Below, in pieces: positions 2,765 through 21,700 of a stretch of 25,123 nt of DNA (position 1 is the first letter of the stretch; each line of letters starts with the position of its first letter). The position numbers and the translations under genes are program-made. The notes below the pieces were generated by a model. The model had not been told where the DNA came from and searched no databases. It saw only the letters and a program-made list of their open reading frames with translations. This stretch comes from an uncultured Prevotella sp. GTDB taxonomy: Bacteria > Bacteroidota > Bacteroidia > Bacteroidales > Bacteroidaceae. The stretch covers positions 1 to 25,123 of the forward strand of contig CAKQDQ010000026.1 in assembly GCA_934229335.1 (NCBI GenBank). Reading direction: 5' to 3'.

Positions 2765-2833
2765 TGTATTTTCCGATAGACTTCTTCGTATTGGAAAGAA
2801 TATTTGCGAAGGTAATAGCAGAAGAAAACAAGA

Positions 2834-4096
2834 ATGGGCAACACCAATAAAACCTACAATTGGGAATTCAACCTGTTTGAAAAGACATGGAGTTTTCGAG
2901 GAATACCCTGTCCCGACTGCGTGAACGAGAGCAACTGGAGAGCATGGCAGCAATACCTGTCAGGACTGATAAGCAAGCATCTGTGCACTGAGACCATGCA
3001 GACGGCAGAGTTTCAAAAAGAGTTGGAGACTGTCCGTAGAGATGAGGAAGAACGTCTTGAACGCCGGAAAAGATTGGATGAAGTAGCTGAGACACGCAGA
3101 CGAAGAAGTTGCATGGAACGCCCGAAGATAGACTACATTCCCAAGGGATTGCATATAGACTTGGAAGCAGCTTACGCCAAGTATTTCCAACAGGTTGTGA
3201 CCTTTATACCAACGGACAAGGACGACTTCATGTATATGCTGCGTCTGTTGGAGCGTTGGGAGAAGAAGTCTGTGCCGGCAGTGTTGGCGAAAGGCAGACC
3301 CGATGCAGCGTATGCGATAGCGATGGGGCTGTGTGAACATCTGCCATTGCTGATAATGAGGGATGATATAGAAGACTATCTGAAAGAATACAAACTGCGC
3401 ATCGGAAAACTGATATACGCCAGTTTTGCAGCATTGGTGGACAGCGTGACCGCATGGAACAACGAGGAAAAGCGAGAAAACGTGTTCACCTACATCTTTA
3501 CACACCTGTCACGGTTTGACGACTTCAAGCGCGTGCAGAACAATATACAGATGTTGGCACCCAACAAAAAGTTTGTTGGAGAACCAGTGAAGATAGAGCG
3601 AGAGATGAACGAAGAGGAAGAACGGGCAGCAAGAGAGGCAGAGCGGAGACGACAGGAAAAGGAACGGAAGATGCAGGAAGCGGAGAAAGAAGCCAAGTCG
3701 CTGATACCACTGAACAAGAACTATGAAGAGCACATTTTTAACCACAGAAACGTGGGTTGGGACTGCCATACCATTTGGCAACTGATGCTGGACGAGAACA
3801 AGGAAATCAAGAAGCAGATTACCGCAGGGGAATATAAGACGGCTGCGTTGATGTTCATGCAGATGACGAAATCCATGTGCAGACATTTTGTGATGGACAG
3901 GCATTGGGAGTACTTTGACGATATGTATAGTCCGGAATATGCGGTAAGTGACATGATGGAAGTATTTGAACGGTTAGCGAAAGAGGGGAAACTGCCGAAA
4001 GAAGTAAATGAGTATATGCATGAGGCGTGGAAAGAAATTGAGGAAATGGAGAGTAGCGTGGGGTATGGTATTCCGAGAAGAGGACTACCGTTTTAG
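2834..4096 (+). CDS. Unrecognised charged, coiled-coil protein (420 residues)
   Basis: I do not recognise a named family. The protein is soluble, with no signal peptide or membrane segment. Residues 59-93 and 255-290 are very rich in Glu, Arg and Lys and look like long helices or coiled coils. Between them (about 105-250) is a predicted helical block that could be an alpha-solenoid. The C-terminal part (about 296-415) contains Trp, His and aromatic-rich helices (DRHWEYFDDMYSPEYAVSD) and ends in a Gly/Pro-rich tail. A CPDC pair at residues 26-29 could bind metal, but no second pair is obvious. The ATG at 2834 has only a weak upstream purine stretch, as is common in Bacteroidales. Its place between the FRG gene and the twin helicases suggests an adaptor or scaffold in that module; this is inference. 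Confidence 0.6.
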   Translation: MGNTNKTYNWEFNLFEKTWSFRGIPCPDCVNESNWRAWQQYLSGLISKHLCTETMQTAEFQKELETVRRDEEERLERRKRLDEVAETRRRRSCMERPKIDYIPKGLHIDLEAAYAKYFQQVVTFIPTDKDDFMYMLRLLERWEKKSVPAVLAKGRPDAAYAIAMGLCEHLPLLIMRDDIEDYLKEYKLRIGKLIYASFAALVDSVTAWNNEEKRENVFTYIFTHLSRFDDFKRVQNNIQMLAPNKKFVGEPVKIEREMNEEEERAAREAERRRQEKERKMQEAEKEAKSLIPLNKNYEEHIFNHRNVGWDCHTIWQLMLDENKEIKKQITAGEYKTAALMFMQMTKSMCRHFVMDRHWEYFDDMYSPEYAVSDMMEVFERLAKEGKLPKEVNEYMHEAWKEIEEMESSVGYGIPRRGLPF

Positions 4097-4136
4097 GAGC
4101 CTCTTCTTGGAATTTAGATTAATAAGCCTTTTAAGA

Positions 4137-4166
4137 CCGACTGAGCCGTTGGGGAATGGCTGTCGG
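4137..4166 (+). other. Hairpin in the gap before the first helicase
   Basis: CCGAC (4137-4141) pairs with GTCGG (4162-4166), and AGCC (4144-4147) pairs with GGCT (4158-4161). No T-tract follows, so it is not an obvious terminator. It could be an mRNA structure between the coiled-coil gene and the helicase pair. I see no consensus promoter in 4097-4241. Confidence 0.3.
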
Positions 4167-4241
4167 GGAATATGAGACAAATGGAAAACGAAAGGACAAA
4201 CGAAGTAAGGCTGGAGAGAAGAATTGAGGAGAAACACAAGC

Positions 4242-6524: not shown

Positions 6525-6525
6525 A

Positions 6526-9066
6526 GTGAAGAACGACATTCAGCTTTACGACTATCAGGAAGAAATGAGGGGGAAGATTGACACGACATTCAAGTCGTGC
6601 CAATCTGTAATGGTGCAGATGCCGACAGGTACGGGAAAGACGTATCTGTTGGCTTCTGTCGTATATGGGGAGATAGAGCGGTCGGACAAGGCAAGCGTAT
6701 GGATTGTAGTACACCGCAAGGAGCTGGTGGAACAGATAGAAGAGACACTTGAGAAGTTCGGAGAAATGCTGAATGACAAGGTGGACTTTGAGAAAACCTT
6801 TCCCCTTTTATCGGAAGAACATCGGATAAAAGTGATGTCGATACAATGGTTGTCACGGCACTATGAGGAATTAGAAGAACAGCCCAGTCTGATAGTGATA
6901 GACGAGGCACATCATGCCGTGGCGAAGACCTATGCGGAGGTGATGAACGCCTATCCCGAAGCCAAGAAACTCGGAGTCACGGCAACGCCATGCCGACTGA
7001 GAAAACGAGGTTTTACAGATTTGTTTGACACACTGCTGATGTCATGGTCAACCAAACGCTTTATTGCAGCAGGACGACTGTCGTTGTACGACTATATGAG
7101 CATCAAGGCAGACAGTGAAGGCCAACGCAGGATATTGGGGCTGACGCAACGAGGAGCTGACGGAGACTTTTCGATGAAAGAGATGAGCGAGAAGTTAGAT
7201 GTAAAGCCGAGTATAGAACGGTTGTGCGACACAGTGTTGCGCTATGCAGCAAACAAGAAGGGCATCACATACGCCATCAATATTGCCCATGCGGAGCATA
7301 TAGCCGAGGAATACAGACAGCATGGGATAAATGCAGTGGTGATAAGCTCGAAGACAGCCAAGGAAGAGAGACGCACGAATATCGAAAGATTCAAAGAGGG
7401 AGAAATTCAGGTGTTGGTGAATGTAGACTTGTTTGGCGAAGGCTTTGACTGTCCTGATGTAGAGTTTATCCAGTTGGCAAGACCGACCCTGTCGTTAGCA
7501 AAATACATGCAGCAAGTGGGACGTGGACTGCGCGTGTTCGAAGGCAAGAAATACTGTCTGATATTGGACAATGTCGGACTGTACCGCCTGTTCGGATTAC
7601 CATCAGACGACAGAGACTGGCAAGCGTTGTTTGAAGGGGCTATAGCCGGAAAGGGCGACATGACTCAGGCGGAAGAGCAATACTATGACGCCTATTCCGT
7701 TCGCAATGAATCTGTGCCGATAACATCAGACAGCCAGACGGAACTGAAAACCGTGATGACACATGACGGACAGCGCATGGACTTGGATGCGGCATACGGA
7801 TATGAAACCGTAGAAAATACAGACGGTCTGTTTGGTGTAGTCGATAAAGAAGGCAACGAGATCTTGCCTTGTATATATAACAAGGTAGAACTAAAAGCCT
7901 ATGGCTTTGCCAAGCTCTATTCCAGGCGGAAGATAGACAGGGAACGGCCGTGGATAGACCTGCGGAATGGCGTAAGGTTTTTGAAACGTCCCAAGGTTGA
8001 GAAACACGGCTTTCTTGATTTCTCTACCACTGATGGAGTACTCTTTTATCCAAGAGTATGTACACGACAAATGGATGTAAACAGCTTTGTGTTAGAAGCA
8101 ATTTTCGAATGTGGCATAGATGATGGACTGCGGTTCAAGACCTTTTTTGTCCAGCCATCAGAGCCAGAGAGACTTTACTCGTTCAGGGAAAAAATAGATG
8201 ATGTGACGCTGTGGGAGAATGAACAAGGCGGTTTGGCATGGCGCAAAGGGTGGGAAGCAACGCTGCATCCGATAACCTCAGCAGAATGGGCGATCAGGAA
8301 AACGGCTTGGGAAGAAGAGATAAAGCAGTTTGAGGAAGAAGAGAAACAATACATACGGTATTTCAAACCCGAAATCAACATAGACGACATTTTCGGCAAG
8401 ACACGCTTGGCAGACTATGAAGAACCACAATATCTGAGAACATCATGTATTACCAAAAGCAACTATCAGGTATATTATCGCAAGCATTGGTTGGATAAAT
8501 GGGAATCTGTAGGCACTTATCTCAAAGTCTTTCCACAAGCATACGGCATCCGGGTGGTGCAAAACTGGAACGGGAAATACCTTGTACGCACCTCACTCTT
8601 CAAACCCTTGGAAACCCCGGAGCAAGAATATGAATATGCGGAGTTGCAAGACAACTACATATTGTATTTTACCGAAGGAAGCAAGGAATACTGGGTCAAT
8701 CTGGAAAACAAAGTCTGCTTTACCATAAAGCCAGAGTTCGTGACCATCGGCTTTATGGACTTCATCAAAATAGGCAATGTGTATATGGAACGATATTCCT
8801 ATAGCACTAAAACCTATCGAAGGGCGGAGATAAGGATGTATGAAGAGGTCTGCTTCTTAGGTAACAAGTACATAATAGTTAATTCAAAGCATAGCGGAAG
8901 GAGATTCGAGATACTACAGCGGAATGTGGACGGCAAGCATTTCGTATTGAAAGATGAGAATAATCCCAACAGCAGCTTCTACGATATGTATTATGACGGC
9001 AAGAAATTACCGATAATCATAAGACGAAAGAAAGATTATGAAATGAAAGATAGAATAAAGCCGTAG
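6526..9066 (+). CDS. DEAH-box superfamily 2 helicase, second of a tandem pair, with WG-like C-terminal region
   Basis: The gene starts with GTG one base after the stop of the first helicase, so the two are almost certainly translationally coupled. The 846 residues carry PTGTGKT (33-39), DEAH (126-129), GVTATP (150-155), DLFGEGFDCPD (301-311) and QQVGRGLR (329-336). The helicase core is strongly similar to the first protein, while the C-terminal halves diverge. Residues 432-452 (DGLFGVVDKEGNEILPCIYN) resemble one WG beta-repeat. A unit of about 40 residues occurs twice, as WIDLRNGVRF...HGFLDF (476-499) and WVNLENKVCF...IGFMDFIKIG (723-750), and once in the first helicase. These may be beta-rich substrate- or partner-binding repeats. 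Sequence alone does not show whether the pair forms a heterodimer or has split specificity. Confidence 0.85.
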   Translation: MKNDIQLYDYQEEMRGKIDTTFKSCQSVMVQMPTGTGKTYLLASVVYGEIERSDKASVWIVVHRKELVEQIEETLEKFGEMLNDKVDFEKTFPLLSEEHRIKVMSIQWLSRHYEELEEQPSLIVIDEAHHAVAKTYAEVMNAYPEAKKLGVTATPCRLRKRGFTDLFDTLLMSWSTKRFIAAGRLSLYDYMSIKADSEGQRRILGLTQRGADGDFSMKEMSEKLDVKPSIERLCDTVLRYAANKKGITYAINIAHAEHIAEEYRQHGINAVVISSKTAKEERRTNIERFKEGEIQVLVNVDLFGEGFDCPDVEFIQLARPTLSLAKYMQQVGRGLRVFEGKKYCLILDNVGLYRLFGLPSDDRDWQALFEGAIAGKGDMTQAEEQYYDAYSVRNESVPITSDSQTELKTVMTHDGQRMDLDAAYGYETVENTDGLFGVVDKEGNEILPCIYNKVELKAYGFAKLYSRRKIDRERPWIDLRNGVRFLKRPKVEKHGFLDFSTTDGVLFYPRVCTRQMDVNSFVLEAIFECGIDDGLRFKTFFVQPSEPERLYSFREKIDDVTLWENEQGGLAWRKGWEATLHPITSAEWAIRKTAWEEEIKQFEEEEKQYIRYFKPEINIDDIFGKTRLADYEEPQYLRTSCITKSNYQVYYRKHWLDKWESVGTYLKVFPQAYGIRVVQNWNGKYLVRTSLFKPLETPEQEYEYAELQDNYILYFTEGSKEYWVNLENKVCFTIKPEFVTIGFMDFIKIGNVYMERYSYSTKTYRRAEIRMYEEVCFLGNKYIIVNSKHSGRRFEILQRNVDGKHFVLKDENNPNSSFYDMYYDGKKLPIIIRRKKDYEMKDRIKP

Positions 9067-9095
9067 AGGGGGGATTAGCGACAAATTTCTAAGGC

Positions 9096-9138
9096 AAAGG
9101 CGGATGCGCAAGATGGAGATTCTTGGGCATCCGCCTTT
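9096..9138. terminator. Bidirectional terminator between convergent operons
   Basis: A perfect 12-base stem (AAAGGCGGATGC at 9096-9107 and its complement at 9127-9138) is extended by GCAAG/CTTG inside the loop. It lies 29 bases after the + strand helicase stop and 13 bases from the - strand nuclease stop, so it can serve both. The T-tracts are short (three bases each side). Confidence 0.75.
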
Positions 9139-9151
9139 GAGCGTTTATGGC

Positions 9152-10366
9152 TTATCTACTATTAACCTCAAGTATTTGCCCCAAGTGATATTCCACTACG
9201 CCATTGTTGTATGTAGTGTCCAGCACCTGCACCAATGCGCTGTCACGGTCTTTGTGATAGCCCACATAAAGGCGAATAGCATCATAACGCCGCAGATAAC
9301 GTTTGCCGTCGGCAGCGTCAATGTAAGTATATTTATTCAAAGTGGTTTGCTTCAAATCTCGATATTCTACAGTCTTCTTGCCACTAATAATCTGTTTGAA
9401 ATACACATCCTTAATGTTAAGCGTCAGCACCTTTAGCCCTTTGGTGTTGAACGTAGGCGAGTTCTTCACGATACGTCGCTCCAGACATTGCAGTTCCGCA
9501 TTGTAAGAATAATTGATAATGCTACCATCAGCAATCTTCCTTATCACCCTTTCTATAATCTCCAGTGGTGCAACATACCATTCTGACGGCACGTGTTCGT
9601 TACCATCCTCATCATATACCTTCACCTGAAACTGCACCTGACTAAACACCTGATGCACAATATTCTCGAATATCTGCGAGTTCATGTTCACAATCTGTGC
9701 CGTCAGCATAATCTTCACGGGTGCCATGAGGTACGTAGGCTCATGTATAGCGTTACTAATGCGTTCTTCTACGCTGTTAGTAGTAAAGCCTATCTTATAC
9801 AGGTTCTTCACATCCGCTATTGCCTTGTCAGTAGATAGCGAACAGAGCACATACACATAGCCCGTAGTCTTGTCTTCGCTTGTCGTAGTATTACAAAAAT
9901 TCTCATGCTCATTCTCTTGCGTTTCCGTTATGCCATAGCCGTTGTACAGCACGTTTCTACGCAATGTTTCAAGCAGAATGTCCGACTCCGTACCGTTCTC
10001 GTATATGCATCGCGTTCTTCCGTCAGGCATACCGTTGCGTGCCTTCTTTGTCTCAGCGATGTCGGCAAGATACAGCATCATCCCGTCTACAATGTAGAAG
10101 TGCCCTTCCTCCATGCTCGCCGTCTTCGAAGTCTTTATAAGGCTTCGTTTCCCCTCTTTCAGTTCCGCGTGCACCTTCTTGAACATCGGCTCATAAATAT
10201 AGAAGTCCTCACATGCTTTCTTCTGCGCATAATGGTCAGGCTGTATGCGTCTTGCCTCCATAACGCACTTCATGTCCGCTGGGATGTTAAACAAGTCAGC
10301 CTCATGCTGCGTAAGATTCAGCAGTGGGTCGTCAAACAACTCCTTCAGTTCCCTATCTATATCCAT
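9152..10366 (-). CDS. GIY-YIG nuclease (T5orf172-like) with C-terminal ASCH domain
   Basis: This 404-residue protein has three parts. Residues 1-140 form an N-terminal region (FKKVHAELKEGKRS, then RTRCIYENGTESDILLETL at 118-136) that I associate with this nuclease family. Residues 168-275 are a GIY-YIG domain: GYVYVL (169-174), LYKIGFT (189-195), Arg202 and the likely catalytic Glu234 in IFENIVH. Residues 310-400 match an ASCH domain: VLTLNIKDVYFKQIISGKKT followed by VEYR gives the hallmark GxKxxExR (Gly329, Lys331, Glu334, Arg336). GIY-YIG domains cut DNA with a divalent metal; ASCH/PUA-like domains bind nucleic acid. As last gene of the methylase-helicase operon it is the probable effector nuclease. 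The start has a good AAGGAG site and overlaps the upstream 75-residue ORF by 10 bases. Confidence 0.83.
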   Translation of the reverse strand: MDIDRELKELFDDPLLNLTQHEADLFNIPADMKCVMEARRIQPDHYAQKKACEDFYIYEPMFKKVHAELKEGKRSLIKTSKTASMEEGHFYIVDGMMLYLADIAETKKARNGMPDGRTRCIYENGTESDILLETLRRNVLYNGYGITETQENEHENFCNTTTSEDKTTGYVYVLCSLSTDKAIADVKNLYKIGFTTNSVEERISNAIHEPTYLMAPVKIMLTAQIVNMNSQIFENIVHQVFSQVQFQVKVYDEDGNEHVPSEWYVAPLEIIERVIRKIADGSIINYSYNAELQCLERRIVKNSPTFNTKGLKVLTLNIKDVYFKQIISGKKTVEYRDLKQTTLNKYTYIDAADGKRYLRRYDAIRLYVGYHKDRDSALVQVLDTTYNNGVVEYHLGQILEVNSR

Positions 10367-10584
10367 AGTCCTTTCTCCTTATATGTACGTAAAGATACCG
10401 CCAACAGCCGTTCTTGCATGCTCCCTTTGCTGTCGGGTTCACGTCCGTTGCGTTCTATCCATTCACGCAGTTCGTTAATCTTACGTTGTATTCTGTCGTC
10501 AGCAGTAATGGCGGCAGGCTTCGGTTTTACGTCCTTTAATAGCGGATCGTCAAACAGTTCCAGTAATTCTTTAGACCATTCCAT
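10357..10584 (-). CDS. Small 75-residue protein, probable detached N-terminal module of the nuclease
   Basis: The protein begins MEWSKELLELFDDPLL, echoing the nuclease start MDIDRELKELFDDPLL, so the two N-termini look duplicated. Residues about 31-70 (IQRKINELREWIERNGREP, then SMQERLLA and TYKEKG) form a short helical module. From memory, related GIY-YIG proteins carry this 'NGREP...ER.L' module in their own N-terminal region. A similar pattern ends the neighbouring helicase (LQQWVAEHSGQMP, then LQERELAQAY). It may be an interaction or DNA-contact domain shared by the subunits. Its stop overlaps the nuclease start by 10 bases, which implies coupled translation. I see no frameshift that would restore a single long protein, because the nuclease has its own start and ribosome site. 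Confidence 0.62.
   Translation of the reverse strand: MEWSKELLELFDDPLLKDVKPKPAAITADDRIQRKINELREWIERNGREPDSKGSMQERLLAVSLRTYKEKGLWI
10375..10380 (-). promoter_or_regulatory. Strong Shine-Dalgarno site for the GIY-YIG nuclease gene
   Basis: AAGGAG on the minus strand lies 8 bases before the ATG at 10366-10364, inside the end of the 75-residue coding region. Strong sites are uncommon in Bacteroidales. It supports independent initiation of the nuclease rather than a frameshifted fusion with the upstream ORF. Confidence 0.55.
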
Positions 10585-10590
10585 AGTATA

Positions 10591-10669
10591 AAGTAAGTAT
10601 TCAAAATTATTTATATATATCAGTAAGTGAACATTATCATTTCTATAATTATATTTTGAACACTTACTT
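10591..10669 (-). promoter_or_regulatory. Inverted-repeat region with competing hairpins and a possible promoter element
   Basis: The arms 10591-10607 and 10653-10669 match as inverted repeats at 16 of 17 positions, spanning the AT-rich gap between the helicase stop and the 75-residue ORF. A third copy at 10622-10629 (AGTAAGTG on the + strand) can also pair with the 10653-10669 arm over 8 bases, so two hairpins exclude each other on the minus-strand transcript. TAATTTTG on the minus strand (10609-10602) matches the Bacteroidetes -7 element, but a -33 element is weak. It could tune nuclease expression relative to the helicase. Confidence 0.45.
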
Positions 10670-12692
10670 ACTCCGTTGGTTTTAATCCCATCATAAACCT
10701 TATCTTCTCATTCTTTATCACGGCATACGCCTGCGCCAGTTCCCTCTCTTGCAGGTTAGGCGAATCCAGCGATGGCATCTGTCCGCTGTGTTCCGCTACC
10801 CATTGCTGCAAAGGTCCCTTAAAAAGCGTGATGGCATCGGCAACAGACATATCAAAACGCTGCTCGGCAATAGTGTCCTGTATAATCTTCAGCGTCTCCT
10901 TGTCCACGTTCTTCGATATCACCTCGTAAGCCTTTTGGTACGGATTGATAGAGTCAATGAGGTTAATGCTCAGTTTGTCTATATTAATAAACTTGTTGGC
11001 AATCTTTATCAGTCTGTTACCTTCCGACGGACTATCATCGTCTTTCGGCTGAATCATACCTGGCGAAACATCCACAGGATCCCCCTTATCGTCAGTAATG
11101 TTATTACCTTTCACCAAAGTGTTGAGCAAGAAGTGCTGTCGCACCTCCTCCACCTCTTCTGGCGTAAGGTCAGGGTAACGCTTTATTATCACCTTCGGGA
11201 TAATATTCTTCGTCACGTTCTCTGCCGTGGTGCTGCCGCTCAGTGCCCTTATTGTCATCTCGTCCTGTAGCACCGCCGCCTGCAGGTCGTCCAGTTGTTC
11301 CTGTATAATCTTGCGAGTTCTGTCCGTAGACAGCGGTTTCAGTCCCTCTACAATGATAGTGTTCACCAGAGGGTCGTGCTCATCGTCCTCCTCTTTAGTA
11401 GTCTTAAACGTCCAACTTGGTGCCATCACCTGCTCCATAAGCAGCGATGCGGTAATGGCTTTCAGAAAGTCGTTCACCGCCACCTTCACCTCTGCCTGCT
11501 CCGCGTCGGGCATAGCAATCATGTTAACGAACCTTGCCGTCTCTTTTCCTTCGCTGTCGCGGGTGCATCGTCCTATAATCTGTATCACCTCCGTCAGCGA
11601 TCCTCTCACGCCAATGGTGAGACACGTCTCGCACCATTCCCAGTCAAAGCCTTCCTTGGCGGTACCTAAGGCTATGATGATGTCCATGTCCTCACGCCTC
11701 TTCATGTGCTGAAGGTAGTACTGTATCCGTGCTCTCTCGTTAGTGTCATTCTCCACAAGGTCCGCCACCTTCAGCAGTCTGCCGTCAGGAGTCCTCAGCG
11801 TATATACGCATGTGTTATAATCCTTCGCCACCAGTTCGCCAATGCGTTTCATTATCTCCCTCGTCTCATCGTATTTATTCCCCGATGACGCTCTTGAGTT
11901 AATGCTCGGAATATGTATTATGGTTTTCTTCTTCGTGTCGAGCACCTCGCTTATGTGCTCTATGTAAGAGCCATGATAGAAATGATAGCCCAACACAAGA
12001 TTCTTCAAATACCTGTAACCGTTCAGTTGTTGGTAATAGTTATAGGTCACGGGGTGGAACTTCGCCTCGTCTTCTGCCCTCAATACCGGCACGCCATCGC
12101 CACGAAAATAACTTCCCGTCATGGCAACAATATGCCCCGTAGAGTTGTTTATCACTCTGCGCACGATGTCTCCCAGTCCGCTGTCAGCATCAGCACTGGT
12201 ATGGTGAAACTCGTCTATCGCCAGCAGACAGTCGTTAAACTCCTCGTCGTTCAGTTCCTTCATGCCGTTACGCAGCGTGGCATGTGCGCAAACAAGTATG
12301 CGTTCTTTGCTCTTACGAAAGAACTCCAAGAATGTTCCCACCTTATCTTTCTCGTTTCCCAAGGCATCGCATAGGTTATACTTCTGCATCACGTGCCAGT
12401 TGGCAAAGAAGCCATTGCTCATAAGGTCCGTGTCCTTAAACGACCTGCCTATGCTTTTCTCAGGTACCGCCACCACCACTTTCTTTATACCCTGATGCTC
12501 CAGTTTGTCGAGAGCCACAAACATCAGTGCCCTCGACTTACCACTTGCTGGTGGTGCCTTTATCAATAAGTATTTCTCGTTGCGTGCTTCGTATGCCTTG
12601 GCTTGCATCTCTCTCATGCCGAGGCTGTTGGTTGATGTTGACGAACCTGTCTGCTGATAGTGTATGTCAACAAAATCATTCTTTGCGTTCAT
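10668..12692 (-). CDS. Superfamily 2 DEAD/DEAH-like helicase of the methylase operon
   Basis: This 674-residue ATPase has Walker A APPASGKS (46-53), motif II DEFH (160-163), motif III-like MTGS (191-194), motif V GTAKEGFD (343-350) and motif VI QIIGRCTRD (371-379). Motif II departs from the usual DEAH or DEAD. Residues 400-674 are an accessory region. Its end (FKGPLQQWVAEHSGQMPSLD, then ERELAQAY) resembles the module in the 75-residue neighbour. The likely role is ATP-driven translocation on DNA to license or guide the GIY-YIG nuclease in a methylation-sensitive restriction-like system. It starts 52 bases after yoeB and ends 83 bases before the 75-residue ORF. From memory, the combination recalls the Bacillus subtilis yeeA-yeeB-yeeC cluster; I could not check this. 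Confidence 0.82.
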   Translation of the reverse strand: MNAKNDFVDIHYQQTGSSTSTNSLGMREMQAKAYEARNEKYLLIKAPPASGKSRALMFVALDKLEHQGIKKVVVAVPEKSIGRSFKDTDLMSNGFFANWHVMQKYNLCDALGNEKDKVGTFLEFFRKSKERILVCAHATLRNGMKELNDEEFNDCLLAIDEFHHTSADADSGLGDIVRRVINNSTGHIVAMTGSYFRGDGVPVLRAEDEAKFHPVTYNYYQQLNGYRYLKNLVLGYHFYHGSYIEHISEVLDTKKKTIIHIPSINSRASSGNKYDETREIMKRIGELVAKDYNTCVYTLRTPDGRLLKVADLVENDTNERARIQYYLQHMKRREDMDIIIALGTAKEGFDWEWCETCLTIGVRGSLTEVIQIIGRCTRDSEGKETARFVNMIAMPDAEQAEVKVAVNDFLKAITASLLMEQVMAPSWTFKTTKEEDDEHDPLVNTIIVEGLKPLSTDRTRKIIQEQLDDLQAAVLQDEMTIRALSGSTTAENVTKNIIPKVIIKRYPDLTPEEVEEVRQHFLLNTLVKGNNITDDKGDPVDVSPGMIQPKDDDSPSEGNRLIKIANKFINIDKLSINLIDSINPYQKAYEVISKNVDKETLKIIQDTIAEQRFDMSVADAITLFKGPLQQWVAEHSGQMPSLDSPNLQERELAQAYAVIKNEKIRFMMGLKPTE

Positions 12693-12744
12693 AGTGATAA
12701 GTGGTTATGAACGCTCTATGAAATATAGGGTGTAAAAAATGTTG

Positions 12745-13011
12745 CTACTTATAATAATGATATTTCATGGACAGAATCTCAACCACTATCATGTCATCTT
12801 CTACTTTATAAATGATTCTATGCTCACTATTGATTCTTCTTGACCATAGCCCCGTTAAGTCAAACTTTAATCTTTCAGGTTTTCCTATTCCCCAAAATGG
12901 GTGTTCGCATATATCCTCAAGCAGTCTACTAATCCTTTTTGCAATTTGAGGATTAGTGCGTCTCCATTCTTTCCATTGTTCTAATGCCAATGGAGAAAAT
13001 ATCATTTCCAT
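12745..13011 (-). CDS. yoeB: YoeB/Txe-family mRNA interferase toxin
   Basis: This 88-residue protein matches YoeB: IFSPLALEQW at the start, then KPERLKFDLTGLWSRRINSE and HRIIYKV, ending KYHYYK. Glu46 and Arg65 fall at the same positions as in Escherichia coli YoeB, and His85 corresponds to the C-terminal catalytic His. YoeB cleaves mRNA in the ribosomal A site and is neutralised by YefM. The start at 13011 gives alignment with E. coli YoeB from residue 1 and overlaps yefM by 10 bases. A second ATG at 13005 would give an ATGA overlap. All catalytic residues are present, so the toxin looks active. It sits inside the methylase-helicase-nuclease operon. Confidence 0.92.
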   Translation of the reverse strand: MEMIFSPLALEQWKEWRRTNPQIAKRISRLLEDICEHPFWGIGKPERLKFDLTGLWSRRINSEHRIIYKVEDDMIVVEILSMKYHYYK

Positions 13012-13262
13012 AAATCTTCTAGGCTTACTTTTATTCCTTTGCCATTATTAATATCTTCTTCCGCTTGACGTATATCCTCCATCGTCTTAGGTGAAGACAT
13101 TAAATAAAGTGTCTCCATTAGAGAGTTGTATTCATCAAGTGACAGAAGTACTGCTGCTTCATTATTGTCACCATTTACAATAATAGAGTCACAGTTATCA
13201 ATAACAGATTTGAAGTATCCATTAATATTAGAAGAAAAATCATTATAGGAAGTTGTTCTCAT
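13002..13262 (-). CDS. yefM: YefM/Phd-family antitoxin
   Basis: This 86-residue protein begins MRTTSYNDFSSNINGYF and contains NEAAVLLSLDEYNSLMETLY, both typical of YefM/Phd antitoxins. The N-terminal part dimerises and binds the operator, while the C-terminal tail wraps and inhibits YoeB. The frame is open farther upstream to an ATG at 13328. I place the start at 13262 because homology begins there and a consensus promoter lies at 13287-13318, downstream of the alternative ATG. The YefM-YoeB complex normally represses its own promoter. The pair looks more AT-rich by eye than the flanking helicase, which suggests separate acquisition. Confidence 0.9.
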   Translation of the reverse strand: MRTTSYNDFSSNINGYFKSVIDNCDSIIVNGDNNEAAVLLSLDEYNSLMETLYLMSSPKTMEDIRQAEEDINNGKGIKVSLEDLWK

Positions 13263-13286
13263 AATCAGAAGTTGTTGGTTATGTTG

Positions 13287-13318
13287 CAAAAGTAGCAAAT
13301 AAATTTCAATCTTCCAAA
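13287..13318 (-). promoter_or_regulatory. Bacteroidetes-type promoter for yefM-yoeB
   Basis: On the minus strand, TTTG (13318-13315) is followed after 20 bases by TACTTTTG (13294-13287), matching TTTG-N19-21-TAnnTTTG. Transcription would begin near 13281, about 20 bases before the yefM ATG at 13262. This gives the toxin-antitoxin pair expression independent of the methylase promoter. Confidence 0.72.
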
Positions 13319-13375
13319 TTTTTGTCATTATTTATTTTTTACACATTATTTCAAAGAGCGCTCGGTTTAATTGTG

Positions 13376-16135
13376 TTATTTTTTCTTCGTCATTTTCTCA
13401 TATAGTTTGAATAGACACTCCAGTCTTTCTTCGTCCGTAGCGAAAGGATATCCTTGGTAGCACGACTCTACTATGCTGTCTAACCTATGGTGTGCTTCCT
13501 TCAGGTCGTCCGGCATCTTGTCTGGGTCATATAGGTCTGCTAATGTGCTTCCCATAGCGAGATATGGCTCACGCGTTATCAGTATCTCTGTTGCTGCTTC
13601 CTCTATCTCTTGCTTCTTTAAGGCGGAGATGGGAGGGAAAGGGAAGGTATTGTAACACATATTTGTGTAACGGTAATCAGTTTTCAACCTTCCTCCTATT
13701 GTTTTCATCCATATCATGCTCATCATAGATGTAACAATTCCAAACGTATATAGGTCTGCATTATAGACCATATACATGGCATTTGTTACAACCATATTGC
13801 TATCTGCATATCCCATAGGTATATAAGTCCTACTCTCGGACGATGTAGAAGGAATTATTAAAGTTCTTTCATCGCATGCGTTAAACTCTCTGAATTGGTA
13901 TGGCTTAGTTGCTAAAGAACGAGCACCAATATCAGAACTTGACAAGCGCATTTCTTTTGTTTTTTCAATTCTTTCCTTAATCTCTGGTATTTGAATAGCA
14001 TTTTGATATTCATTATCCGCTATCCATAGACAATATCTTACTTGTCCTCTGATATAATCTGCGGCACTATATATCTTTTTTATAAATAGATTAGCCTGTG
14101 GGTACATACTACATAAGCCATGTCTTTCATCTTCTGATAAGAGAAGATTACCTCCATCGTAAGGCATACACCCTCTGTTTATATTAGGCAGATTTGATAT
14201 AGGAGTAGTATGTTTATGCACAATCATGTTTCCGCCTTCTGTAAGGTAAGGGGTTATAGATGAAACCATCCGTTGACCTTTGCTGTCAAATAGTATTTTA
14301 TTTTTATTATTCTTTTGAGAAATACCTACTATCGTACAAGTAACTCCTGCATTATATTTCGCATTGTTTCTCCATTTGAATGACATATACGCAAAGTCTA
14401 TAAACACGTTCATATTAAAAATATGACTCCACAATGGTTCTACCATTTCACCTTGACATATTGAGTTTGTACTTACAAAGGCGCATTTACTACTTGAGTT
14501 ACTTACCATTTGCGCTCCTTTTATAAACCATACACATATATAGTCAAGTTTTTTATATCCGATACAGTTTCCTATGGCATACCGCATATCTTCTTTTTGT
14601 GTTTTATCTTGTAGACTAACTCCCAAATACGGTGGGTTACCAAACAGGAACACTTCTTCGTCTTTGGTATGCGGACACACTGTATTCCACTCCATGCGGC
14701 AGGCGTTGCCTTGACGGATATTCTGAATGTCATGAAGCGGTAGGGCTTGCGTGTTCACGCCAAAGTCTTCGTGCATCTTCTTATTCATCTGGTGCTCGGC
14801 AAGCCATAGTGACAGACGCGCTATCTCGTGAGGGAAGTCGAGGAGTTCTATGCCGTAAAACTGCTGAATGGAGATAAAACTACCGTCAATGAAAGGCAGA
14901 CTGCCCTGTGGGGTACATTGAGAGACGAGAGAAAAGATCTTCATCTCAAGCAGGCGTAGTGCCTTATAGGTAATGATAAGGAAGTTACCGCTGCCGCAGG
15001 CAGGGTCAAAGAACTTCATCTTCGATATTCTTAGCAGTAAGGCATTACACCTCTTCTCTAAAGGTTTCGTAAGAGCATAAAACTGCCCTTGGCTAATCTC
15101 GCCAATGTCTTTCCTCGTTTTCAGTTTCTCAAGGTCGGAGGCGATGGCGCTGTACAAGCCATTCAGTTCGTCGAGGAAGAGCGGATTAATAACCTTCATG
15201 ATGTTAGGCACACTGGTATAGTGCATACCCTGGTTGGCACGCTCTTCTGGATTTACCACGGCTTGAATCATAGAGCCGAAGATGTCAGGGTTGATGTTCT
15301 GCCAATCTAATTCACCACTCTCTATTATTATCTGCCTCGCCTTCATCGACAGTTGCGGTATCTCTATGTCCCTCTCAAACAGTCCGCCGCCAACATACGC
15401 AAAGTGTTGCTTGCAGTAGGTATGAAGCATACCAACAGGGATAGGTTTGCCACCCATAAAACGGAACATCTGGTCGAGAACCGTCATCAGGTTGGTGGCA
15501 TCGTTAGTAAATCGCACTATGGCGTTGGTGAACACGTTGTTGGCGAATATGCCTGTATCCTCCGCAAAGAAACAGAAGAGCAGTCGGGCAATGAAGGTGT
15601 TGAGGTCGTGAATGTCAGAGTCACTCGTAAACTCATTGTATGCCCTTATCTCGTCGTGCAGTTTCGCCAACTTCTCCGCTGCCTTGATGTCGGCAGGCGA
15701 TTCCTCCGTATACTCTATGCGCTCCACGCCAGCAAGAGGATAGAAAAACTCAAAGTCGCAGAACAGTCTCGCTACTTGTTGCTCAAAAGTCTCCCTCTGT
15801 CGTAGGTCGAAGGCACGTATGGTCTGTCCGTCGCTCACGGCAACAATCTTCGGTTGCGCCTTAATCACGGCGTTGTCACATTTCAGTTCATCAAGATCGT
15901 GAAGCAGACCGAGTGTAGAGGAAGGCTTATAGCAGAACAGCCCCTTAATGAGTATTCCCTCGCTGAATGTCTTTATTATGCCCTTGCCCTCCTTGTATCG
16001 CTCAATGTCGCGCTCCGTCTTGCCGAAGGCATAGAGCAAGCGGTAGCCTATTTCGTCTGCCGTACAGGGATTATACTTTAGGTTTTTCAGTCGTTCCTCT
16101 ATCTCCTTATAAGATAGTTGTATTTTTTTAGCCAT
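13376..16135 (-). CDS. MmeI-like class I adenine-specific DNA methyltransferase
   Basis: This 919-residue protein has motif I FFDPACGSGNF (375-385), which binds S-adenosylmethionine, and the catalytic motif IV NPPY (500-503), typical of N6-adenine methylases. LLFCFFAEDTGIF (185-197) and GMHYTS (303-308) are landmarks of the large MmeI/type IIL-like family. The N-terminal part (20-135) aligns loosely with that family's nuclease-side region, but I see no clear D...ExK site, so it is probably methylase only. Target recognition should lie in about 600-830. The DNA for residues 500-829 (14640-13650) is visibly more AT-rich than both flanks, as after exchange of the recognition part. It probably protects host DNA and sets specificity for the downstream helicase and nuclease. 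The ATG at 16135 lies beside a nested inverted repeat. Confidence 0.87.
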   Translation of the reverse strand: MAKKIQLSYKEIEERLKNLKYNPCTADEIGYRLLYAFGKTERDIERYKEGKGIIKTFSEGILIKGLFCYKPSSTLGLLHDLDELKCDNAVIKAQPKIVAVSDGQTIRAFDLRQRETFEQQVARLFCDFEFFYPLAGVERIEYTEESPADIKAAEKLAKLHDEIRAYNEFTSDSDIHDLNTFIARLLFCFFAEDTGIFANNVFTNAIVRFTNDATNLMTVLDQMFRFMGGKPIPVGMLHTYCKQHFAYVGGGLFERDIEIPQLSMKARQIIIESGELDWQNINPDIFGSMIQAVVNPEERANQGMHYTSVPNIMKVINPLFLDELNGLYSAIASDLEKLKTRKDIGEISQGQFYALTKPLEKRCNALLLRISKMKFFDPACGSGNFLIITYKALRLLEMKIFSLVSQCTPQGSLPFIDGSFISIQQFYGIELLDFPHEIARLSLWLAEHQMNKKMHEDFGVNTQALPLHDIQNIRQGNACRMEWNTVCPHTKDEEVFLFGNPPYLGVSLQDKTQKEDMRYAIGNCIGYKKLDYICVWFIKGAQMVSNSSSKCAFVSTNSICQGEMVEPLWSHIFNMNVFIDFAYMSFKWRNNAKYNAGVTCTIVGISQKNNKNKILFDSKGQRMVSSITPYLTEGGNMIVHKHTTPISNLPNINRGCMPYDGGNLLLSEDERHGLCSMYPQANLFIKKIYSAADYIRGQVRYCLWIADNEYQNAIQIPEIKERIEKTKEMRLSSSDIGARSLATKPYQFREFNACDERTLIIPSTSSESRTYIPMGYADSNMVVTNAMYMVYNADLYTFGIVTSMMSMIWMKTIGGRLKTDYRYTNMCYNTFPFPPISALKKQEIEEAATEILITREPYLAMGSTLADLYDPDKMPDDLKEAHHRLDSIVESCYQGYPFATDEERLECLFKLYEKMTKKK

Positions 16136-16137
16136 GG

Positions 16138-16207
16138 GATATAGTTGCTGCTAACGTCAGAGTGGTAGCCCCAACGCCAAAGGTTAGTGATATGGCTTAA
16201 CTATATC
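16138..16207 (-). promoter_or_regulatory. Nested inverted repeats abutting the methyltransferase start
   Basis: GATATAGTT at 16138-16146 pairs exactly with AACTATATC at 16199-16207, and inside it CTAAC at 16151-16155 pairs with GTTAG at 16183-16187. The outer arm ends two bases from the ATG, so in RNA the structure would lie against the ribosome-binding region. As DNA it could be an operator. Either would allow control of methylase synthesis. I found no consensus promoter inside it. Confidence 0.45.
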
Positions 16208-16270
16208 TCACGCTACTTAGTATACAAAGATGCAGGTATCGTGGTTTTTCGTAGTAAGAGAAAAGGGTAC

Positions 16271-16357
16271 AAAAAAAGTGTGAGCCACTTCTATGCGTTC
16301 ACCCAGGCAGCCTCGGAATGGAACCTGACCGTGCAGTTTATGAAGTAATGCTCACAC
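16271..16357 (-). terminator. Terminator-like stem with a T7 tract
   Basis: Eight exact base pairs (16350-16357 with 16278-16285) plus five more (16342-16346 with 16287-16291) close a loop of about 50 bases, followed on the minus strand by seven Ts. The loop is longer than in a typical intrinsic terminator, so termination efficiency is uncertain. Confidence 0.45.
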
Positions 16358-16558
16358 GATATCGTGCTCACATATTATAAACCACACGGTCTGGCATCCA
16401 CATACGAGGATGTCAACCATTATTATAGGCGTTTGTATTCCGAGAATAAGTTTCCGAGGCTTTTCCGGTGAACGCAAAATAATAGTTAATGCTTTATGTC
16501 AATATGTCGTTGAGTGTGCGTCCGCTGGGCGTTGTCGCTCAGTGGTGTGTCGCCAACT
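16271..16558 (-). ncRNA. Candidate structured RNA or attenuated leader upstream of the methyltransferase
   Basis: A near-perfect promoter (16565-16596) would start a transcript near 16558. It contains a hairpin with 5-base arms CATCC/GGATG (about 16397-16414) and a 12-base perfect palindrome at 16355-16366. It also has a closing stem of GTGTGAGC with GCTCACAC (16357-16350 with 16285-16278), extended by ACTTC/GAAGT and followed by seven Ts (16277-16271). No convincing coding frame fits inside. It could be a free RNA of about 290 bases, or a leader whose terminator limits read-through into the methylase 136 bases on. I do not recognise 6S RNA, RNase P RNA, tmRNA or SRP RNA. Confidence 0.4.
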
Positions 16559-16867: not shown

Positions 16868-18634
16868 TTATACTTGTTTCGCGTTTTCCATATTTATGGC
16901 GTAAGTGACAGTTGTCATATTCTGGTGAAACAAATAATCGTACTTGATGTTCTGACAAAAGCCTCGTACAAGTAATAATCCTAAGCCAGTTTCCTTATCG
17001 TACTCTACAGGATTAAAGGCTTTGGCGTCATCGCTTATTACGACCTTTACGTGGTCGGGCAAAATAGTTAGACGAAAGTCGATATAGTGTCTATTGATTT
17101 TCGCCTTAACATTGTTAGTGTATTTGAAGCCATGCGTAATAATATTTTTCAACAACTCTTCAGAGCTTACTTCTATATGCGAAATAAGTGAAGAATCGCT
17201 AAGGTGTGTTTTTAGATATGCGTCAACCTGTTCTAAGGTCTCACCCATTGCCTGTATATTGGCACTGACAGAGGTTTCAAATCCCTTTAAGTTGTCATTG
17301 CGAGGAATAAGAATAACGGGACGCAGACGATGGTCGCGATGACGAAGCATGGTTGTGAATAGTGCTAAAAGTAATGCTATTACTATCTGCCCTAAGGCAA
17401 ATCCCCACCATACGTATTCTGGTGCCACTTCTGCCAACAGCCACATGCCAAGCATAGGTGCTAATGACTGTCCAACAGATATAAACGTTGCCATGGTCCT
17501 ATTCTCATACAGCTGATATATTGGTACTAACAAATATATGAGACATTGGAAAATGATATTAAGTGTGAAAGGAGGTATCGCTTTTGCTACGTAGTCAACA
17601 CAAACGGGTGATGATATACCGTAAAGCATTGCCACTCCGTGCGAGAAAAGTATCAGGGGGGCTATGTAAATAAACAGACTAATTAGCATAAAACGGTAAG
17701 CCTTGCGTATCACCATCAACACCCCTTGTGCGTCATCCGCACCCTTCAAGATAGATGCCACAGGCTGAAACGCTTTAAGGGTACCTGTCAAGATAATCAT
17801 TGATAGACCCAATAGGTATATACATACCGAAAGGGCGAGAATACCTTCTTCGCCTAAATAACTCATTGCGATGGTATTGTTGCCCCAGAACTGAACTGCC
17901 ATCAACATTGTGGCAAGTCCGAAAGGTAAGCCTGAAGATAAAACTTGACCTGCATATTTGATAAAAGAGTGAAAAACTAAACTTAGCGTGTCTTTCTTAA
18001 GGAAATGTGGCAGCAGAACGATGACTGACACAAGATAACTCAGAACTGTTGCTGTTGCAGCACCGCGTACGCCCCAACCGAAGCATTTGATAAACACATA
18101 GTCTAATGTCAAGTTGGTTATCACGCAGGAGATGACAGCTATTGTTACTCGTTTAGGATTGCCGTCAACTGCCACAAACATCTCAAGTACTACCGACATC
18201 ATATAAAACAATGCGCCATAAAGGGTAACATCAAGAAACTCTGTGGTAACACTCTTCAAACCATCGTCAGCACAAAGCAGGTTAACTAAAGGTTGCAACC
18301 AACTGAGACCCAACACCAAGAACACGGCTCCAACGATGACTACCATCATCATCACTACCGTAAATATCCTATTAGCTTCGTCACGATGGTGGTTACCTAT
18401 TGACATGCCCACCATCATAGATGAACCTGCTCCTATCCACATGCTTAGTGAGAAAAGCAACTGCATGACAGGACGACAAATATTAACACTGCTCATGGCT
18501 TGCTCGTCCACCAGATAGCTCAACATCATACCGTCAATAGTGGCTCCTAACTGGTTGGCTGCCACGGTAAGAAGTGAAGCTAACAAGATGCCGTAAAAAG
18601 CCTTGTTGACTAAATAAGATTTTCTTTTTTCCAT
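16868..18634 (-). CDS. MATE-family transporter fused to a C-terminal RsbW-like ATPase domain
   Basis: Residues 1-430 of 588 form a multidrug/oligosaccharidyl-lipid (MOP) superfamily, MATE-type membrane domain. They comprise about 12 hydrophobic segments, with ANQLGATIDGMMLSYL near the start and GWGVRGAATATVLSYL at 186-201. Residues 445-583 are soluble and match a GHKL/HATPase domain of the RsbW/SpoIIAB anti-sigma type. The N-box is EELLKNIITHG (492-502), the G1-like motif is DDAKAFNP (535-542), and the G2 motif is GLGLLLVRG (550-558). The transporter probably exports a small molecule by ion antiport. The ATPase could act as a kinase or nucleotide sensor at the cytoplasmic face. The gene follows the NRPS by 87 bases on the same strand, with a terminator between, so it is the likely exporter or self-resistance factor for the peptide product. 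Confidence 0.83.
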   Translation of the reverse strand: MEKRKSYLVNKAFYGILLASLLTVAANQLGATIDGMMLSYLVDEQAMSSVNICRPVMQLLFSLSMWIGAGSSMMVGMSIGNHHRDEANRIFTVVMMMVVIVGAVFLVLGLSWLQPLVNLLCADDGLKSVTTEFLDVTLYGALFYMMSVVLEMFVAVDGNPKRVTIAVISCVITNLTLDYVFIKCFGWGVRGAATATVLSYLVSVIVLLPHFLKKDTLSLVFHSFIKYAGQVLSSGLPFGLATMLMAVQFWGNNTIAMSYLGEEGILALSVCIYLLGLSMIILTGTLKAFQPVASILKGADDAQGVLMVIRKAYRFMLISLFIYIAPLILFSHGVAMLYGISSPVCVDYVAKAIPPFTLNIIFQCLIYLLVPIYQLYENRTMATFISVGQSLAPMLGMWLLAEVAPEYVWWGFALGQIVIALLLALFTTMLRHRDHRLRPVILIPRNDNLKGFETSVSANIQAMGETLEQVDAYLKTHLSDSSLISHIEVSSEELLKNIITHGFKYTNNVKAKINRHYIDFRLTILPDHVKVVISDDAKAFNPVEYDKETGLGLLLVRGFCQNIKYDYLFHQNMTTVTYAINMENAKQV

Positions 18635-18721: not shown

Positions 18722-21700
18722 TTATTTCTCGAAGAAGTTGAAGCCGTCAATGGCTTTGATAAAGCGTTCTACATAGTCCCAAGAGGTGATAGGCCAGCGG
18801 TATCCTAAGCGATAAAGAACCTGACAGGTGTACTTGCTTGTATGTCCTATGAAGCGTACATCGTGACCTCCATTCTCGTTGTATGCCAACAAGGGTTGCA
18901 GAATCTGCGCCTTAGAGTCATCTTCCATCAACTGCTGAATGCGTTTCTCAAACTCTTCACGCTCAACAGGTTCTACATGTATGCCGATAATGTCTAAGCC
19001 TGCCAAGACGTCGCCTAATGGCAAAATGTGGTTGTTGCATGGATGGAATACCACCATGCTGCGAGGGGTCGTTGCTAACAGTCGGCAAGCATGGCAAACA
19101 TCATCAATAGGGGAGAACTCGCAGGGGGCATCGAGCACGTCGTATGGGGCATATCCTAAAAGCGCATACGACTTCAGTCTGCCCATAAAGCCATTGGTTC
19201 GGAAGTTAATCTGGAACTCACCGTCGGCGTTACGAGATGACAAGGTGCCTACACGCATAATCTTTGCGCTCAAACCTTTATGGCAAATAGCCTCGAAAAT
19301 GAGTTGTTCCGCATCATATTTTGATTTTGCATACTGGTTACTCAGTGATTGTCCGAAATCAAACATGTGTTCAGAGAGTAGGGTAGAGGGCGAAGGAGTA
19401 CCGTCAACGCTCTGTCCTGCCACGCTGATAGTAGAGGTGTGAACCAAGCGTGCGCCGTTCTTTAAGCACCAAGTTATCAGGTTGCGCACGCTCTCTACAT
19501 TCACTTTCTCTATGTCGTCGCCAGCAGAGAAGTGTTTAACATTGGCGGCACAGTTAATGACAGTGTCCACCTTCACGTCTAAGTGGTCGAAGAACGATGT
19601 GTCGGTAGTATCACCTTCCAATATCTGGATGCGATTGCCAAAGAGTTCCTCGTATGAATTGTCAAAATAGTAGAAGAGCAAAGAGCGTAGTCTACTGTCT
19701 GGAGCAACGCTGCCTTTACGGCGAAGCAGACAATAGATGCGGCCTGATTCATTCTCTATCAATTCGTGTAGGAAGTGAATACCCATAAAGCCAGTGGCAC
19801 CAGTCAGTAAGACATCGCCCAAAGACTGTCGCTCGTCATTATTCAACTTGTCAAGGCTGTTAGCCTCCAGTATATCTGCATACTGCGATTTCTGCTCCTC
19901 ATCTTGCGTGTGGTCTATCACGATGCTTTCGCTAACGGAAGCGCCGTCTTCCTTACCACGCAGATAAGCTGCCAGTACACGTGGCGTCTTGCAAGCGAAC
20001 ACGTCCTTGAACGACAAGCGATACCCCTTCAGGGTTAGAGCTGCAACAACTTTAATGGCAGAAATAGAAGTTCCGCCCAAGGTAAAGAAGTCATCATTGG
20101 CACTGATACGTTCTGCCCCCAGTATCTTGGTGAACGCCTCGGCAATATCTTGTTCTAACTGTCCTTCTGGCTCAACAAATGCAGATGTCTCAGCAGCAGA
20201 AATGGTAGGTGCAGGCAAAGCCTTACGATTAACCTTGCCATTAGGAGTAAGTGGTAACTGATCCAGCTGTAAGTAAGCATCAGGAACCATGTAATCGGTC
20301 AGTGACTCTGCCAAGAAAGCCTTTAACTTAGTAGAATCCACCTCAGCATCAGCAGTATAGTAAGCACAGAGATGTTGCAAACCGTTAATCTCCTTCACCT
20401 CGGCTACAGCGTTGCGGATGCCTTCATACCTGCATATGGCGTTTTCAATCTCACCTAACTCAATGCGGAAGCCACGCAACTTCACCTGAGTGTCGATACG
20501 GCTGATATACTCTATCTCCCCGTCGAAGTTCCAACGACAGAGGTCTCCCGTATGATACATACGAACCTTGCGTCCCCATGCATCTTTCTCAACGAAAGGA
20601 CAGTCGCCATAGACCTTGCTCGTTTGTTCCTCACGATGCCAATAACCTAAACCTACCTGTATGCCTGCGAAGCATAGTTCGCCAGCTACACCTTGTGGCA
20701 AAAGGTGACCTGCCTCGTCAACAACAAAGTTCCAGCAGTTGGCTATAGTCTTACCAATAGGTATTTCCTCAACACGAGTGCCTGCAGGAATAGTGTAGTA
20801 GGAGGTGTCATCAGTACATTCTGTTGGTCCATATACATTGATTATATCGATATGATCACTGTATACTCCCGCCATTTTTTCGCCACCACCAGTGATGAAG
20901 CGTATGGGCAGGTCGTCGAAGGTGTTTAGTAGCAAACAGGTAACGGCAGTAGAATAGCCACCACCCGTGATGTTATGGTCGAAAAGGAACTGGCGAATCT
21001 CTCCTAAGTCCTTGCGAATGGCAGACGGCATTATGTGGAATGAGCCTCCCAAGGTAAGCACAGGGTACATATCCTCGATGTGGGCGTCAAAGGAGAACGA
21101 GCGATGTCCGCTGATGCGATCAGCGGCAGTAAGGTGCTCCATGTCTATTACGGCGGCAATGAAGTTACGCAAACCTGCCTGGTGTAAGCGTGCTCCCTTA
21201 GGAGTACCTGTTGAACCAGAGGTGTAAATCATGTAAGCTACTCCCTCAGGGCGTGAAAGGTCTATTGCCTCTGACTGCGCGGCTTGTTGCGCAATGTCCT
21301 CCTTAGCCAATAGATCATCCAAGAAGAAAGGCTGTGCATTTGACAAGTTGAAATCTCCTTCTGCCAACTTTGCTTCCAGCACATCATGTGTAGTGATAAG
21401 CAGTTTTGACTCAGAGTTCTCCAACATATAGGAGAGACGTGCGTTAGGATATTCAAAATCCAGTGGTACGTAGGCTGCGCCACTCTTGTGAAGGGCCAAC
21501 ACCGTGAGAGGAAATAGCTTTGTACGCTCCAACATCACACATACTAAGTCATCAGGTAATATACCTAAGGCAATGAAACGATGAGCCAGCAGATTAGAGT
21601 ATTCATCCATTTCACGGTACGTAAACTGGCTATCGGCATCAGCCACGGCAAGATTGTCGGGCGTTCGTTGAGCCTGTTCCACAAAGAGATGGGCAAAGGT

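Follow-up and report, generated by a model that had tools for sequence, protein, structure and literature searches.

A stretch of 25,123 nucleotides from an uncultured Prevotella sp. (assembly GCA_934229335.1, contig CAKQDQ010000026.1), analysed here in full and called the window, carries on its minus strand an operon which, judged from its sequence, belongs to the DnmA-YeeB-YeeC type of restriction-modification system and has a slot for interchangeable cargo between its methylase and helicase genes. The slot of the window is filled by a YefM-YoeB toxin-antitoxin (TA) pair, most likely a back-up to restriction; to this reading of operon, slot and pair as a whole we give a probability of about 0.6. 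Extra sequence was found at the same junction in 44 of 71 loci, window included, with open reading frames (ORFs) in all but one of them (L101), and a gene at the next junction, between helicase and nuclease, in only 1 of 66 (L098). Where both junctions were visible (67 loci), 40 were occupied at the slot only and one at the next junction only (sign test 4e-11).

The genes named in an earlier, sequence-only reading of this DNA are present as ORFs on the minus strand, and Pfam confirmed their families (Table 1); the count of five genes plus a TA pair given there comes down to four genes and the pair. The methylase matches Pfam MmeI_N/hel/Mtase/TRD/C and, in a PADLOC run, PDLC03598 at 939 bits. 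Downstream on the same strand follow an SF2 helicase and then a T5orf172/GIY-YIG protein, which is the order of DnmA-YeeB-YeeC with the TA pair interposed and YeeC written as two ORFs; the proposed kinship to yeeA-yeeB-yeeC of Bacillus subtilis is borne out, with the same three families in the same order. The methylase chain includes the target-recognition domain, in contrast to the separate HsdS subunit of type I systems, and no HsdS family appeared among the Pfam, PADLOC and NCBIfam matches of the operon proteins, so the operon is not assigned to type I. The YefM and YoeB genes are adjacent and overlapping, with the antitoxin first, as in type II TA modules of this family, and the window YoeB aligns to YoeB toxins of solved structure; for the nuclease-family profile and the helicase, no solved structure was matched by sequence. 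The YefM ORF (108 residues) can open at 13328, but the ATG at 13262 is the likelier start because the former would fall upstream of the promoter-like sequence.

A single leader and a single terminator had also been proposed. The leader was not confirmed, because the promoter consensus is unmatched before the methylase gene and sigma-70 and terminator scans gave chance-level results only. A possible terminator is a hairpin found by eye after the nuclease gene and missed by the terminator scan, its loop being longer than the limit of that scan. Scanning the window with Rfam (gathering threshold) and for tRNAs gave no match.

Table 1. Features of the operon and its slot (positions in the window)
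Feature	Position	Strand	Basis
DnmA/YeeA-like MmeI-family adenine DNA methyltransferase with target-recognition domain	13376..16135	-	Pfam MmeI domains
Left inverted repeat of slot (GAGCGCTCTTTGAAATAATGTGTAAAAAAT)	13334..13363	-	related to those of L001, L002, L005, L062, L205
Bacteroidota-type promoter-like TTTG-N20-TACTTTTG before TA pair	13287..13318	-	consensus match
YefM antitoxin	13002..13262	-	Pfam PF02604 PhdYeFM_antitox; TIGR01552 above cut-off; promoter position
YoeB mRNA interferase toxin	12745..13011	-	Pfam PF06769 YoeB_toxin and TIGR02116, above cut-off
Right inverted repeat of slot, inverted copy of left	12709..12740	-	0 of 2000 shuffles reach score
Predicted RNA hairpin enclosing helicase start codon	12685..12714	-	fold z -5.5 on 61 nt
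YeeB-like SF2 helicase	10668..12692	-	Pfam ResIII, DEAD
75-residue protein, by profile the detached N-terminal domain of YeeC	10357..10584	-	profile match to YeeC N-termini
YeeC-like GIY-YIG (T5orf172) nuclease protein, 404 residues	9152..10366	-	Pfam PF10544, PF13455 (T5orf172/MUG113)
12-bp perfect hairpin, possible terminator, between converging genes	9096..9138		by eye from sequence

The sample comprised loci L001-L008, from a methylase search, and further loci from helicase searches in 399, 393, 369, 200 and 45 genomes, which returned matches in 23, 17, 12, 25 and 9 of them, respectively; these sets overlap and, because methylase and helicase searches defined the sample, loci lacking these genes lie beyond its view. 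The conserved trio anticipated by the sequence-only reading was recovered: methylase, helicase and nuclease genes, fragments included, occur together on 65 of 79 helicase-bearing loci. In ten of the 14 loci without the full trio the contig breaks off near the missing gene, and L066, L072, L076 and L096 are the exceptions without that explanation. Slot states were assigned by reading ORFs together with Pfam matches. L066 (which has the pair but lacks the methylase), L072 (with a fragmented methylase) and L076 (methylase absent in about 25 kb) were excluded from the 71 junctions, as were L032, L069, L082, L096, L173 and L179, where the junction is unreadable (10 kb upstream in L096 are free of a methylase match); L205, located through its repeat motif, is also outside the 71. 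Slots scored as empty include L003, L004 and L065, with gaps of 277-300 bp (an 87-residue ORF in L065 and a 63-residue ORF in L004), and L188, judged on a methylase fragment of 65 residues, and those scored as occupied include L071, holding one ORF of 98 residues, and L101, a 930-bp gap with no clear gene that has words in common with the RhuM slot of L106. The helicase-nuclease gaps of L007 (252 bp, helicase frame broken) and L071 (191 bp) were scored as having no gene.

To follow turnover we placed the slot states on a tree of the 71 helicases (FastTree; several branches are long). Occupied and empty states required 21 changes against a shuffled mean of 21.8, with 215 of 500 shuffles as low, and occupancy is therefore not clustered on the tree. 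When all 14 slot states were distinguished, 33 changes were needed against 41.4 for shuffled labels, and none of 200 shuffles was as low, so cargo identity retains some kinship signal.

TA modules make up 13 of the 44 occupied slots, one of them an antitoxin only, which rules out that the insertion is unique to the window genome; the embedded YefM-YoeB pair of the sequence-only reading is present, yet as one occupant of a variable slot, not as a fixed feature. The window pair lies on the operon strand, while in L064, L165 and L175 (and L066, outside the count) YoeB lies on the opposite strand and is paired with another kind of antitoxin, and L182 has another YoeB. PIN_3 toxins were found in L166 and L174 (the PIN ORF of L174 is short) and a PIN toxin in L167, the antitoxin of which is 91% identical to the lone antitoxin of L169. 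RelE-like toxins below the Pfam cut-off occur in L184 and L185 and ParE-like toxins in L005 and L062, that of L062 having no Pfam match and being assigned by 31% identity to the L005 toxin; PemK/MazF is present in L205, outside the count. All 13 TA modules fall in the 58 rows drawn from Bacteroidales, 36 of which are occupied, and none in the remaining 13 rows, eight of which are occupied, which confines the TA cargo of this sample to Bacteroidales. The other cargo comprises RhuM (seven slots), SLFN AlbA_2 (four), a polyvalent-protein kinase (four), and YhcG (three); the remaining 13 slots hold, among other things, an AAA_15 ATPase, an SF1 helicase, membrane-like proteins and a weak ParE match in L107 that was scored here.

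In L076 (5135-12041) SIR2, HerA and an AlbA_2-like protein stand directly before yeeB, with no methylase match for about 25 kb upstream. The methylase of L072 (8303-10040) is in pieces, with an acyltransferase-like ORF, read from sequence, between them. The slot of L171 holds a second, partial methylase 3' end (8118-8312) that shares 94.5% identity with the intact copy across 55 residues and is probably the scar of an exchange.

The edges of the slot are shared by unlike cargos. In the clade of the window, a sequence like CGCTCTTTGAAATnnTGTGGGAAA (0-3 errors) lies ahead of the cargo in the window, L001, L002, L005, L062 and L205, is followed by TTTG-N20-TACTTTTG in five of these six frames (L001 is the exception), and recurs as an inverted copy just before the helicase start in all six. 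TTTG-N16-23-TAnnTTTG is a Bacteroidota-type promoter consensus, and 13318-13287 is its sole match on the minus strand of 9000-16500, in agreement with the promoter of its own that had been claimed for the TA pair. The score of the inverted pair was reached by none of 2000 shuffles for the window and for L001; the pair is weaker in L005 and L062, since 22 and 24 of 2000 shuffles, respectively, reach it. The pair of L002, which was misplaced in the shuffle test, has a score of 44, and the right copy of L205 has eight errors. In L001 the stretch from the methylase to the left repeat, which is outside the frame, holds an extra AAA gene. In a second clade, each of the ten opposite-strand slots that were examined has TTTG-N-TAnnTTTG beside the helicase start, similar in sequence from one TA family to another, and a third type of edge is common to the kinase slots and the DUF6169 slot of L176. 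The fold of the hairpin predicted at the helicase start has a z of -1.6 on a 43-nt piece in which the stem is cut short; over six slots of the first clade 97.8% of cells are paired with one compensatory pair, a number equalled in 265 of 500 shuffles (the covariation score in 13 of 500), which amounts to slight evidence for the hairpin.

The methylase had been described as MmeI-like without a nuclease site, and this holds. The D-x9-ExK motif is absent from the window methylase, which therefore does not fall into type IIL (MmeI), where the nuclease is part of the methylase chain; the alignment of MmeI 5hr4 begins only at residue 89 of the window protein and the likeness spans residues 89-917. 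For comparison, 30 loci were fetched for the best MmeI_N matches in 393 genomes of the order, 92 of which have a match. D-x9-E-x-K stands in the aligned columns in 29 of these 30 (the remaining row is a wrong ORF), and among 40 operon-type rows, window included and all drawn from L001-L107 (L165-L188 being outside the alignment), two are gapped at the E column and none of the other 38 has E. The 30 loci represent 30 genomes, 28 without a YeeB match (E 1e-50) and two with YeeB on another contig, so motif and YeeB partner are mutually exclusive in this sample. This agrees with earlier work, cited in PMC7261158, on motif-less MmeI homologues that have yeeB and yeeC as neighbours.

That the nuclease lies on another protein, as had been suggested, is borne out by a GIY-YIG (T5orf172) family member in its own gene. 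Residues G169, Y172, K191-I192-G193, R202 and E234 of the window protein are invariant in 27 aligned members, and we take them to be the GIY-YIG residues. The 75-residue ORF upstream, which overlaps the GIY-YIG gene by 10 bases, had been read as a protein of its own; the ORF exists, but by its profile it is the detached N-terminal domain of the YeeC nuclease protein. Such a separate ORF is present in 40 of 79 loci. A profile built from these ORFs aligns with the N-terminus of 32 of 52 YeeC proteins over at least 45 residues (best E 7e-25), which rules out an unrelated small protein, and it matches eight further YeeC proteins, that of the window included, over their first 17-18 residues only. 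The same profile matches 95-residue ORFs of Proteus and Acinetobacter plasmids (6e-19 and 7e-19). At its C-terminus the window YeeC has a weak ASCH-like Pfam match, below threshold (18.1 bits, cut-off 21.2), and a similar stretch occurs in 16 of the 52 proteins, as counted over the portion of the alignment that was examined. The interval between the helicase and 75-residue genes contains an imperfect inverted repeat, AAGTAAGTRTTCAAAAT, at 10593-10677, with a TAnnTTTG box near 10609.

If the operon restricts DNA, the MmeI-family protein would recognise and methylate a short site, and the SF2 helicase and the GIY-YIG nuclease protein (two chains, of 75 and 404 residues) would attack DNA without the methyl mark, a division of labour that would resemble type I. 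The methylase-helicase junction is the place of interchangeable cargo, to which the clade of the window adds a promoter-like sequence and an inverted-repeat frame. Phage take-over or loss of the operon would stop expression of the pair, the unstable antitoxin would be exhausted and the toxin would arrest the cell, which would most likely make YefM-YoeB a back-up of restriction or a means of retaining its genes. Several observations weigh against this reading. L003 and L004, the nearest relatives of the window on the helicase tree, have neither TA cargo nor repeat frame. TA cargos of the second clade are oriented opposite to the operon and are therefore not simply on its transcript. Furthermore, according to PMC7261158 and PMC9973331, deletion of yeeA-yeeB-yeeC in B. 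subtilis had no effect on the phages or the transformation tested.

The strongest alternative is that the slot is merely a tolerated landing site, in which, insertion being nearly harmless there, small selfish TA pairs and other mobile genes gather and help themselves and not the restriction system, and we grant it a substantial minority chance. YoeB-type pairs occurring in both orientations, a slot that retains only an antitoxin-like ORF (L169), and scars suggestive of ongoing insertion, such as the duplicated methylase 3' ends in L003, L071 and L171 and a transposase in L090, would all be expected of such a site. The slot also appears empty in most of the plasmid regions viewed: a helicase relative is present in 184 of 72,556 plasmid records, and of eight regions viewed (picked from the top 14 rows and a single row further down, with an incomplete gene table) seven have no gene annotated in the interval that separates the helicase from the final methylase piece, and one has an unnamed gene. 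However, the helicase-nuclease junction, about as tight as an empty slot, holds a gene in just 1 of 66 loci, similar promoters and edges surround unlike cargos, and phage-defence families are among the cargo, the RhuM of L068 being PADLOC candidate PDC-S05 and SIR2-HerA standing beside yeeB in L076.

We consider it unlikely that the operon is a relic, its restriction system dead and merely stabilised by the TA pair while the methylase works on as an orphan epigenetic enzyme, a view put forward for B. subtilis by the authors of the experiments above (PMC7261158 and PMC9973331). Those results favour it; on the other side, the window genes are full-length ORFs with the GIY-YIG residues retained, the trio stays together in most loci, and loss of the dnmA and yeeB homologues of V. 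crassostreae increased sensitivity to some phages and not to others (another study, as cited in PMC9973331). Less probable still is a mobile cassette family with terminal inverted repeats that brings TA genes site-specifically to the helicase gene: differing cargos do sit within similar frames, and L062 has a tandem pair of them, both made up of a promoter-like sequence, genes and an inverted repeat that closes the frame, but the left repeat at up to three mismatches has only six sites in 128 genomes, all in the methylase-helicase slot, for which reason a dispersed transposon or cassette family was rejected as bearer of the TA cargo, and no recombinase was recognised in the frames, where no profile search for one was made. 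A reversed control pattern of the left repeat gave no match in 8 genomes and one in 121, and an exact scan of viral_contigs for the repeat itself found nothing.

The core operon is already known (PMC7261158, PMC9973331): B. subtilis DnmA(YeeA)-YeeB-YeeC has the same nuclease-less MmeI-family methylase, SF2 helicase and T5orf172/GIY-YIG protein in the same order, and its DnmA was demonstrated to methylate at GACGAG (PMC7261158). The window operon differs in its two-part YeeC with an ASCH-like tail and in the TA pair between methylase and helicase. From MmeI itself (type IIL), which its methylase resembles in sequence, it is set apart by taking the nuclease from another gene. Toxin or defence genes inside restriction operons are known in principle. 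PrrC in the EcoprrI type Ic operon is likewise a toxin-like guard gene within a restriction operon (PMC3710099, PMC12707154), but it is one protein kept inactive by the enzyme, whereas the window has a self-contained TA pair with many alternatives in relatives. TgvAB is a second defence module within a type I operon of V. cholerae VPI-2 (PMC11411939), which differs from the window operon in both core enzyme and cargo. The embedded defence genes of a preprint (Payne et al., 2024) share the general idea of defence genes inside defence operons. CreTA modules, which guard CRISPR-Cas, also couple a TA-like module to a defence system (PMC9458426), but they are RNA-based and regulated by the CRISPR effector. 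Section 8 of PMC9973331, on gene neighbourhoods, places helicase and nuclease at +1 and +2 and mentions TA genes next to the locus of B. subtilis; a slot is not among the arrangements that it describes. We found no description of a recurrent slot in DnmA-YeeB-YeeC operons in literature judged by titles and abstract openings, subscription papers and preprints being mostly outside this coverage.

Elsewhere in the window, a plus-strand group at 1454-9066 converges on the operon and encodes an FRG-domain protein, a 420-residue protein without a Pfam family and two consecutive RadD-like SF2 helicases; it is possibly a further defence cluster. On the minus strand, a single ORF at 16868-18634 combines a MatE transporter domain with an ATPase domain of histidine-kinase-like type, and 18722-25063 encodes a nonribosomal peptide synthetase of 2113 residues with matches to two AMP-binding, one or two condensation and two carrier domains and a C-terminal NAD-binding (reductase-like) domain. 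Phages were rejected as carriers of the system, with a partial helicase match in 2 of 50,697 phage records and one contig in viral_contigs. In a Proteus plasmid (L189, 4731-6002), the methylase annotation covers a short gene of 1272 bp, the start of which adjoins an IS26 transposase.

A stronger form of the back-up reading, which we put forward tentatively and think doubtful as it stands, is that the slot is a dedicated weapon socket, with kept edges and a built-in promoter that take interchangeable TA or abortive-infection guards of restriction. Were this true, a phage that blocks or outruns restriction would set off whichever toxin is mounted, and quick exchange of modules would give related strains different second lines of defence behind a first line that they keep. 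The slot bears on the question whether TA pairs guard other defence systems or only themselves: several TA families alternate beside the same restriction genes with similar promoters, which amounts to a comparison set up by nature and supplies operons with and without cargo that can be matched for testing.

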